Source: Malaciobacter molluscorum LMG 25693 (GTDB lineage Bacteria; Campylobacterota; Campylobacteria; Campylobacterales; Arcobacteraceae). Taken from it: a stretch of DNA of 64,000 nt. Shown here piece after piece: positions 10,043 through 20,865 of the stretch. The stretch lies in NCBI RefSeq assembly GCF_003544935.1, contig NZ_CP032098.1, positions 1-64,000 on the forward strand. The letters run 5' to 3'. The first letter of the stretch is position 1, and every line of letters begins with the position of its first letter. The notes under the pieces were generated by a model, which was not told where the DNA came from, did no database searches, and worked only from the letters and a program-made list of their open reading frames with translations. Both the position numbers and the translations under genes were made by a program.

Positions 10043-10070
10043 CAAAAAAAAAGAGTGCTATAAAGCACTC
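10043..10070 (-). terminator. Terminator of the SRP RNA gene
   Basis: Read on the minus strand, GAGTGCT, a four-base loop and AGCACTC are followed by a run of at least eight T. Its first arm overlaps the 3' strand of the SRP terminal helix. Confidence 0.85.
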
Positions 10071-10171
10071 TTCTCCAGATACCCAAACACACCACTAAGT
10101 AAGGTGCCTTGCTGTGTTCCCACCCTGGGGCGTTGTCTTAAATAATGATTGCAAGGGTCTAAAGAAGAGCA
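10066..10171 (-). ncRNA. ffs: Small signal recognition particle RNA (4.5S type)
   Basis: Read on the minus strand, the region has the SRP domain IV core GGGTGGGAACACAGCAAGG (plus strand about 10108-10126), matching the conserved symmetric loop and GNAR-type tip region of the bacterial small SRP RNA. The ends pair: CTCTTCT (10163-10169) with AGAAGAG (10068-10074), giving a rod of about 105 nt. A U-rich terminator follows. The RNA binds Ffh for co-translational targeting. End positions are good to a few bases. Confidence 0.85.
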
Positions 10172-19493: not shown

Positions 19494-19585
19494 GCCAATC
19501 TCTGCGTTGGAGCTGAATTTTTGCAAAGTCATTTACTTCAAGTAAACTCCTTCGCACTCATTCACCTCCTGCCTTGACTTTAACA
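19494..19585. other. Unexplained intergenic element downstream of nrdB
   Basis: More GC-rich than the surrounding spacers. It has TTTACTTCAAGTAAA at 19531-19545, a seven-base inverted repeat. On the minus strand it carries AGGAGGTGA (an exact anti-Shine-Dalgarno match) immediately before an ATG that opens a seven-codon frame (MSAKEFT), then a second AAGGAG. I know no feature class that fits. From memory, similar strings occur between genes in other proteobacteria, but this is not verified here. Confidence 0.4.
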
Positions 19586-19647
19586 AAAATAAAAATTATA
19601 AAATCTCTTTTGTTATAATGTATCAAATTTATTAGAAAGGAATTTTA

Positions 19648-20259
19648 ATGTTATGTAGTAGTGAACCAAATATACGTAATATTCCAACTAAATGTCCAAG
19701 ATGTCATCATGCAATTAATCCAAATTATGTAGGTGCAGTAAAAGGTAAATATAATGAATATGATTTGTTTTTTAACTGTCCTCATTGTGATAGAGGATTT
19801 ATAGGTGAATACAAAGATGGCTATGTTCAATTTGTTAGTCCTTTATCATACCAAAAAGAGTCATTTGAAAAAGAAATAGAAGAGCTAAGTCCAAATTTTG
19901 TTGAGATTTATAATCAATCAATAGAAGCAGAAAGTCAAAATCTTAATCAATTAACAGGAATTGGACTAAGAAAGTCATTTGAGTTTCTTATAAAAGATTT
20001 TTTAGTTTATAAGAATCCAGATATTGAAGAAAAGATAAAGAAAACACAATTGTCTAGATGTATTAATAATTATATTGAAGATGTAAAATTGAAACAAATA
20101 TCAGAGAGAGCAACTTGGTTAGGTAATGATGAAACTCATTATGTAAGAAAATGGGAAGATAAAGATATAAAAGATTTAAAGTTATTAATTCAAGTAACAG
20201 TAAATATGATACATAATGATTTATTGACTGAGAAATATTTATCAGACATGACAAATTAA
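19648..20259 (+). CDS. DUF4145 domain protein with N-terminal zinc ribbon
   Basis: 203 residues. The N-terminus has two CxxC pairs (CPRCHH near residue 15 and CPHCDRGF near 47) forming a probable zinc ribbon. The rest (about 70-200) matches DUF4145: LSPNFVEIYNQSIEAE, GIGLRKSFEFLIKDFL and the C-terminal VNMIHNDLLTEKYL. DUF4145 is often found as a stand-alone or fused domain in restriction and other accessory genes, but its function is unknown. AAAGGA precedes the ATG. It sits between two structured intergenic elements, suggesting a later insertion (inference). Confidence 0.8.
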   Translation: MLCSSEPNIRNIPTKCPRCHHAINPNYVGAVKGKYNEYDLFFNCPHCDRGFIGEYKDGYVQFVSPLSYQKESFEKEIEELSPNFVEIYNQSIEAESQNLNQLTGIGLRKSFEFLIKDFLVYKNPDIEEKIKKTQLSRCINNYIEDVKLKQISERATWLGNDETHYVRKWEDKDIKDLKLLIQVTVNMIHNDLLTEKYLSDMTN

Positions 20260-20607
20260 GATTTTAGATTCCAGCATTTGTTAAAGCTGAGTTATTTTAA
20301 ATTTTTTTCGAAATAGCTGAGGACTGTTTGAGTAAGTAAAGTGCTAAATGCACTTTTGCTTACGAGTTCCGCAAGCAGAAAATAAATTTATAATAACGAA
20401 GGAAGTTTACCTTTAACAATTAGCTGGTTGCTTTTTGCAATACTTTTTTCAATAAAAAAGTATTATATAAAGTAAAGTATTCTAGTTCTTTCGTTACTCA
20501 TAAAATAAGCCATTTTAATACTTACCTTAACAAAACCATTAAATCCACATAATAATCACTTTAAAAGCTATTTATGTTTAAAATAATACATATTTAAAAG
20601 GATATAA
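20260..20607. other. 348-base non-coding stretch with several inverted repeats
   Basis: No credible gene. It holds: (a) AGCTGAGGACTGTTTGAG (20315-20332) and CGAGTTCCGC (20363-20372), flanking (b) an imperfect hairpin at 20332-20363 (GTAAGTAAAGTGC against a near complement); (c) a perfect 11-base inverted repeat at 20439-20449 and 20454-20464 with loop CAAT; (d) near-inverse copies TAACGAAGGAA (20394-20404) and TTCTTTCGTTA. Part (a) resembles, from memory, a short element found at the edges of mobile regions in many bacteria; this is not verified. Confidence 0.45.
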
Positions 20608-20865
20608 ATGCTAAAAGAAAAAACACAAGATTTTTTAAGAGTTCAGATTATGGATTTGAATGATTTTAACTATTCATTTGAAGAAGATGGTGAATATTTA
20701 CATGTAATTTTTGATGAAGTTTTTTCAAAAAAAATACAAAAAGAGTTTACATTTAAAGTTTTAAATGATACTTTATATATGCACTCTATTTCATATGGTT
20801 GGAAACCTGTGCAAAAAGGTGCTTCAAATAAATATTTTTGGATAGATTTATTATATGAGGATTAA
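20608..20865 (+). CDS. Small hypothetical protein (85 aa)
   Basis: Not recognised. Acidic, mixed alpha/beta in appearance, with no signal peptide or membrane segment. AAAAGGATATAA gives a good ribosome site before the ATG, and codon use looks like that of its neighbours. Two bases separate it from the nitroreductase gene, so they are almost certainly co-transcribed. Confidence 0.7.
   Translation: MLKEKTQDFLRVQIMDLNDFNYSFEEDGEYLHVIFDEVFSKKIQKEFTFKVLNDTLYMHSISYGWKPVQKGASNKYFWIDLLYED

Follow-up and report, generated by a model that had tools for sequence, protein, structure and literature searches.

A cross-phylum family of folding intergenic repeats of about 200 bases that may be mobile

REPs are short palindromes of 20-40 bp that carry a GTAG or CGTC foot and are associated with RAYTs; their dimers occur both head-to-head and tail-to-tail, with spacers mostly of 20-100 bp (PMC3733652, PMC3116915), and the head-to-head form is thus known for REPs (PMC3733652). 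The element described here, which we call E, resembles REPs, BIMEs, and REPINs in being a dispersed intergenic palindrome, present in many copies, frequently as head-to-head dimers, and non-autonomous; dispersed extragenic palindromes that often lie in inverted pairs, the mark of a REP, are what we found. It differs from REPs in its length of about 200 nt, in a fixed internal core that occurs in at least 11 phyla, in dimers that are head-to-head only with spacers of about 200 bp, and, by direct reading, in a foot that carries neither the GTAG nor the CGTC tag. MITEs and other non-autonomous IS derivatives share with E a palindromic unit (about 520-620 nt), long inverted ends, empty sites in relatives, and possible cargo, but in E no target duplication was seen, conservation is highest inside the element instead of at its ends, and no transposase was identified. 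The attC sites of integrons, also folded single-strand sites with a variable apical part that may directly follow an accessory gene, conserve their ends and vary inside, whereas E conserves the inside, varies at its ends, and has no R boxes. Finally, some Rfam RNAs with orphan copies, such as HEARO, are likewise structured, dispersed, and often without a gene, but E matches no Rfam 15 model, HEARO included. E functions most like REP/BIME or MITE repeats, yet lacks the foot tag and the RAYT link of REPs, and is a new variant among dispersed folded repeats, outside any named family. The core sequence as such was not found in open-access literature text, where the few matches were unrelated primers, and a search by topic found no description of E; this large family of about 200-base elements has apparently not been described before. 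We consider it somewhat probable that E is a non-autonomous, REP/MITE-like mobile folding repeat that is recognized as a folded single strand.

The window, i.e., the whole stretch of DNA that was analyzed, is the first 64 kb of the 2.80-Mb single-contig genome of Malaciobacter molluscorum LMG 25693 (G000). The single copy of E in it has the following parts and neighbors.

19648-20259, + strand: 203-aa accessory gene, with a weak DUF4145 match below the Pfam cut-off
20260-20607: gap bounded by the 203-aa ORF (19648-20259) and the 85-aa ORF (20608-20865)
20271-20475, + strand: whole element E, about 205 nt, with the interrupted long stem SL1, a T-run, and the second hairpin SL2 (fold and consensus structure)
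20271-20284, + strand: 5' outermost arm of SL1, CCAGCATTTGTTAA, partner of 20413-20427 (fold)
20292-20309, + strand: inner part of the outer stem, 5' arm, TTATTTTAAATTTTTTTC, partner of 20378-20396, with double compensatory changes
20319-20332, + strand: invariant core, 5' half, GAGGACTGTTTGAG, in at least 120 contigs and at least 11 phyla
20333-20362, + strand: variable inner hairpin of 30 nt (5-32 nt between copies), with a stem that covaries
20363-20373, + strand: invariant core, 3' half, CGAGTTCCGCA, as widely distributed as the 5' half
20378-20396, + strand: inner part of the outer stem, 3' arm (fold and consensus structure)
20413-20427, + strand: 3' outermost arm of SL1, TTAACAATTAGCTGG (fold)
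20428-20475, + strand: T-rich run and second hairpin SL2, in the same layout in other phyla
20608-20865, + strand: 85-aa gene on the 3' side of E, conserved in Arcobacteraceae (34 of 104 genomes) and used as the orthology reference for the site

When 20268-20484 is folded, the motif comes to lie close to the apex of SL1, a single long stem with interruptions; TTGCTTTTTGC comes immediately after this stem, and then SL2. None of 200 shuffles equaled this fold (z of -4.3 for RNA and of -5.3 for DNA). An earlier note on this DNA had reported the split motif GGACTGTTTGAG / CGAGTTCCGC around a hairpin and at least three inverted repeats in the gap. Both are there: AGCTGAGGACTGTTTGAG at 20315-20332 precedes a 30-nt hairpin and then CGAGTTCCGC at 20363-20372, and folding together with the consensus structure locates three inverted repeats, namely the interrupted outer stem (20271-20309/20378-20427), the inner hairpin, and a hairpin at about 20439-20464. 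The structured unit begins at CCAGC, the point where the likeness among congeners ceases abruptly, and stops near 20475, so that the final ~130 nt of the gap lie outside E; the 64-kb window holds no second copy. At the gathering score, Rfam 15 had no match to this copy or to 19 other E loci, and an E value of up to 10 yielded sub-threshold noise alone. The sole above-threshold Rfam match in the window is a bacterial small SRP RNA (10069-10165, minus strand).

We scanned the GTDB contig collection for exact matches to the pattern GGACTGTTTGAGN{2,32}CGAGTTCCGC. At least 120 GTDB-species contigs, which represent at least 11 phyla, contain the exact split motif, GGACTGTTTGAG-hairpin-CGAGTTCCGC, contrary to the possibility, allowed for earlier, that it is unique to this locus, and the reversed control pattern had no match in any genome tested, which shows that the motif is not due to chance. 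Among the matches listed, the 22-nt core occurs in Pseudomonadota, Campylobacterota, Patescibacteria, Bacillota, Actinomycetota, and Bacteroidota, and further in Nitrospirota, Myxococcota, Omnitrophota, Desulfobacterota, and Melainabacteria; the lineages among them include Beta- and Gammaproteobacteria, Coriobacteriia, Gastranaerophilales, and several Patescibacteria. The same exact pattern had no match in IMG/VR viral contigs. A proteobacterial copy had none in phage records and one partial match among plasmids, on a 2.5-Mb Variovorax replicon, and the window copy had none among plasmids. As far as these motif, phage, and plasmid searches reach, E is a chromosomal element.

Copy numbers obtained with a covariance model range from 1 in M. 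molluscorum to 79 in a myxobacterial MAG, with 26, 36, and 15 copies in Patescibacteria, 26 in an Eggerthellaceae MAG, 30 in Cellvibrionales, and 16 in Nitrospirales. The Patescibacteria with 26-36 copies have genomes of 0.8-0.9 Mb (36 copies in 0.8 Mb). These counts should stand, although weak scores from the first model (R1) carry little weight: in the one genome rechecked (G119), the revised model (R2) returned the same 16 copies. Most relatives of E-bearing genomes lack the element. The exact motif is present in 2 of 287 sampled Patescibacteria, the query genome being one of the two, and the covariance model matches in 11 of 299 Campylobacterales, a lower bound given the strict filters. 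The distribution of E is thus one of patchy bursts. Most genomes sampled were MAGs; many copies lie at contig ends, and E repeats seem to break MAG assemblies. The repeats probably also give rise to spurious annotated ORFs.

The stems of E differ freely in sequence between copies and yet remain paired. Of 135 comparisons of native arms with arms exchanged between copies, 131 show better pairing of the native ones, and 89% of the cells pair in an alignment of 44 sequences, whose covariation score of 0.331 compares with 0.096 +/- 0.013 for shuffled alignments (0 of 500 reaching it) and with at most 0.072 when the alignment is slid. Double compensatory changes affect 30 of 47 consensus pairs among 20 Campylobacterales copies. 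A stem without covariation, which would have told against the earlier note, is therefore not what we see. The invariance of the core pairs GGAC/GUUCC is uninformative, because the sequences were selected as exact matches to these pairs. Proteobacteria, Nitrospirota, CPR, Phascolarctobacterium, and a Paraprevotella copy again show the T-run and SL2, and in many cases a third hairpin as well. Two copies from different genera (L134 and L137) have in common an insert of about 23 nt, TCAAAGAGAGTGCAAGCACAAGC, in the linker before SL2.

Such helix covariation is that of a structured RNA, and it is also expected of a fold in single-stranded DNA. E could function as a structured RNA, either a small RNA in dispersed copies or an element of UTRs; a widely conserved protein would then bind its core, and its spread would be secondary. 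We find this rather unlikely. In its favor are an invariant internal-loop core flanked by covarying helices, the tandem GA/GA beside the inner helix, the T-run behind the main stem, and the tolerance of G-U pairs on the motif strand. Among isolated non-Watson-Crick arm pairs, this strand has 241 G-U versus 131 A-C (p about 1e-8, an optimistic value because the copies are related), which makes it the likelier folding strand and also speaks for our preferred reading. The ratio is 44:3 in Cellvibrionales, 29:11 in Bacillota, and 28:9 in Arcobacteraceae; it is not significant in Actinomycetota, other Proteobacteria, Bacteroidota, and Patescibacteria, which counts against our preferred reading. However, no upstream sequence is conserved before the 5' edge in the congeners and other E loci compared, which implies that E carries no promoter; the gene context is not fixed, and E lies in both orientations to genes. 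The exception is Patescibacteria, where E is antisense to both neighbor genes in 10 of 13 compact contexts (e.g., L003, L021, L031, L064, L089, L114), a rule that other lineages do not follow. Moreover, 59 of the 67 apical triloops are GNA, compared with 66 of 473 background hairpins at the same loci, and only one loop is GNRA/UNCG-like. C-GNA-G triloops form extra-stable mini-hairpins in DNA. The loops thus lean toward single-stranded DNA as the folded form, without proving it.

Of the two earlier suggestions, a mark of mobility or a structured RNA, the first agrees with the preferred reading of a mobile repeat. Support for it comes from the many copies and patchy occurrence of E and from an insertion polymorphism among relatives. 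In Rhodocyclales the repeated unit is a head-to-head pair of E. In a Dechloromonas genome (G112) this unit lies directly after a conserved gene and is shared by the nearest relative (G868). At the empty site of another relative (G818), the matches to the two flanks are 3 nt apart, compared with about 629 nt in G112, and three more relatives (G759, G842, G787) also lack the unit there; a copy of about 520 nt is found at another place in G112, G868, and G818. The comparison with G818, which concerns one site, shows inverted ends and no visible target duplication, and sites with empty relatives are few (two). In a pair of orthologous copies (L124/L125), the stem and hairpin were replaced as a block between flanks that are 93% identical, which indicates conversion between copies.

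The mover of E is a separate question. RAYT/Y1 is excluded as a general one: Y1 was found in 10 of 20 E-bearing genomes, not in the one with 36 copies, and none of 29 Y1 loci is flanked by E. No replication-strand bias is apparent (8:8 in one complete chromosome), which argues against lagging-strand insertion as in IS200/IS605, and the E loci read include no autonomous, transposase-encoding relative. Spread through host recombination and repair is an alternative to a moving enzyme. The outermost arms also count against mobility, since they are locus-specific and up to 31 bp long, sometimes perfect (Eggerthellaceae, Cellvibrionales), which is unusual for a transposable end; the feet of E are locus-specific too in G111 and G106. 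Insertion into pre-existing host palindromes, an idea raised by such arms, is unsupported at the site tested, where relatives have just 12-45 nt and no palindrome. One possibility is that fold-back template switching lengthened the palindrome.

The home locus varies at the 5' side. Within the genus, M. molluscorum and three congeners (G078, G079, G082) carry E at one and the same site; G081 has a 5'-truncated copy at this site, and G080 has none there. The sequences that adjoin the 5' edge of E are not related to one another: M. molluscorum has an orphan gene there, G082 a different gene of 70 aa, and G078 and G079 no gene. The foot reads ATT/CCAGC in the window and differs among those three congeners. 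The 203-aa gene, whose stop lies 11 nt before the 5' edge, has no homologue in 298 other Campylobacterales and is absent at the same place in congeners. The earlier statement of a close motif beside genomic islands in many phyla, with a variable hairpin, holds for the phyla and the hairpin; for the islands it holds weakly, inasmuch as single accessory genes lie 5' of E. Downstream of nrdB, at 19495-19590, the intergenic DNA includes another repeat-like sequence, CTGCGTT...TCATTTACTTCAAGTAAACTCC...GCCTTGACTTT; three congeners have a diverged version of it at the corresponding position, and its exact short consensus occurs twice elsewhere in M. molluscorum and in 8 of 31 relatives. The congener G080 has five near-identical copies of E, one of them (L341) directly after a 5S rRNA gene. 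We rejected these as a clean transposition series, since they have long flanks in common and duplicated flanks confuse the picture; duplication of rRNA flanks may have multiplied them.

Pairs of E have a marked orientation. Among copies within 3 kb of each other, 25 of 27 pairs are head-to-head, i.e., with the 5' sides facing, none is tail-to-tail, and 2 are direct; the 27 pairs span several unrelated lineages and are not all independent. Most head-to-head pairs are spaced by 190-350 bp, and five, 1.25-1.7 kb apart, enclose genes. The products include a DUF3800 protein (54 bits, above the Pfam cut-off), a protein slightly below the DUF2971 cut-off of Pfam, an 8xMP protein together with another small protein, and two proteins that have no match in Pfam. 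PADLOC found nothing in these cargo proteins or the 203-aa gene, and no neighbor gene family is common to E loci beyond orthologous loci and spurious ORFs from E itself. In Gallionellaceae/Nitrosomonadales, cargo between head-to-head pairs is bordered by palindromes of another dispersed repeat, of the GGGTGGGCAC..GTGCCCACCC type (L018, 80-210 and 1290-1320; L065, 3130-3200).

These arrangements raise the question of whether E could be the recombination site of a gene-cassette system, with genes captured at or between copies as attC follows integron genes. We judge this quite improbable. In its favor, different accessory genes stop 11 nt (M. molluscorum) and about 10 nt (G082) before the 5' edge, the 203-aa gene is unique in its order, and accessory genes sit inside five of the head-to-head pairs, 25 of 27 close pairs having this one orientation. 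However, most copies adjoin housekeeping genes, the enclosed genes end roughly 85-300 nt from E and not at its edge, and no recombinase came up. By direct reading, the attC boxes GTTRRRY / RYYYAAC are absent from 20271-20427, where the nearest sequences, GTTAAAG and CTTTAAC, are each off by one and are absent from E in other lineages. That E consists of ordinary transcription terminators or palindromes with a mere resemblance to one another is very improbable and largely refuted. A long hairpin followed by a T-run would fit, as would the excess, on the 3' side, of genes that end toward E over genes that start there (66 versus 33). But convergence cannot yield a 22-nt core that has internal loops and is common to several phyla, relatives have empty sites, and on the 5' side the genes directed into E do not outnumber those directed away from it (41 versus 45).

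We thus return to E as a mobile folding repeat, a reading built on the observed structure, covariation, distribution, and pair orientation, on one inserted unit with its empty site, and on the unrelated DNA at the 5' edge. The + strand of E would fold into the long stem, in which the fixed internal-loop core GAGGACTGTTTGAG / CGAGTTCCGCA would be the recognition element, the arms and the apical hairpin needing only to pair. An enzyme would then move E by recognizing the folded single strand, probably of DNA; no transposase was found for E, and Y1 is excluded. In Rhodocyclales, a head-to-head pair of about 520-620 nt with the 3' ends outward is inserted as one unit into intergenic DNA; in other lineages, some pairs of this kind enclose single accessory genes. 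The copy of the window, which stands alone, could be what is left of a pair or a form that is solitary by nature, and the 203-aa gene may have reached its 5' edge as an accessory insertion. Such strong conservation of the core could also mean a host function. A bolder version, which we think unlikely, is that E is the recognition site of a gene-capture system outside integrons and known transposons, acting across phyla on a folded single strand, whose head-to-head pairs insert as a unit and capture single accessory genes between or next to them.

If E is so wide in distribution and outside Rfam, it would rank among the most widely shared intergenic elements. Its core would be recognized by something present in very different cells, and finding this recognizer would reveal either a trans-acting mobilizing enzyme or a shared host factor.
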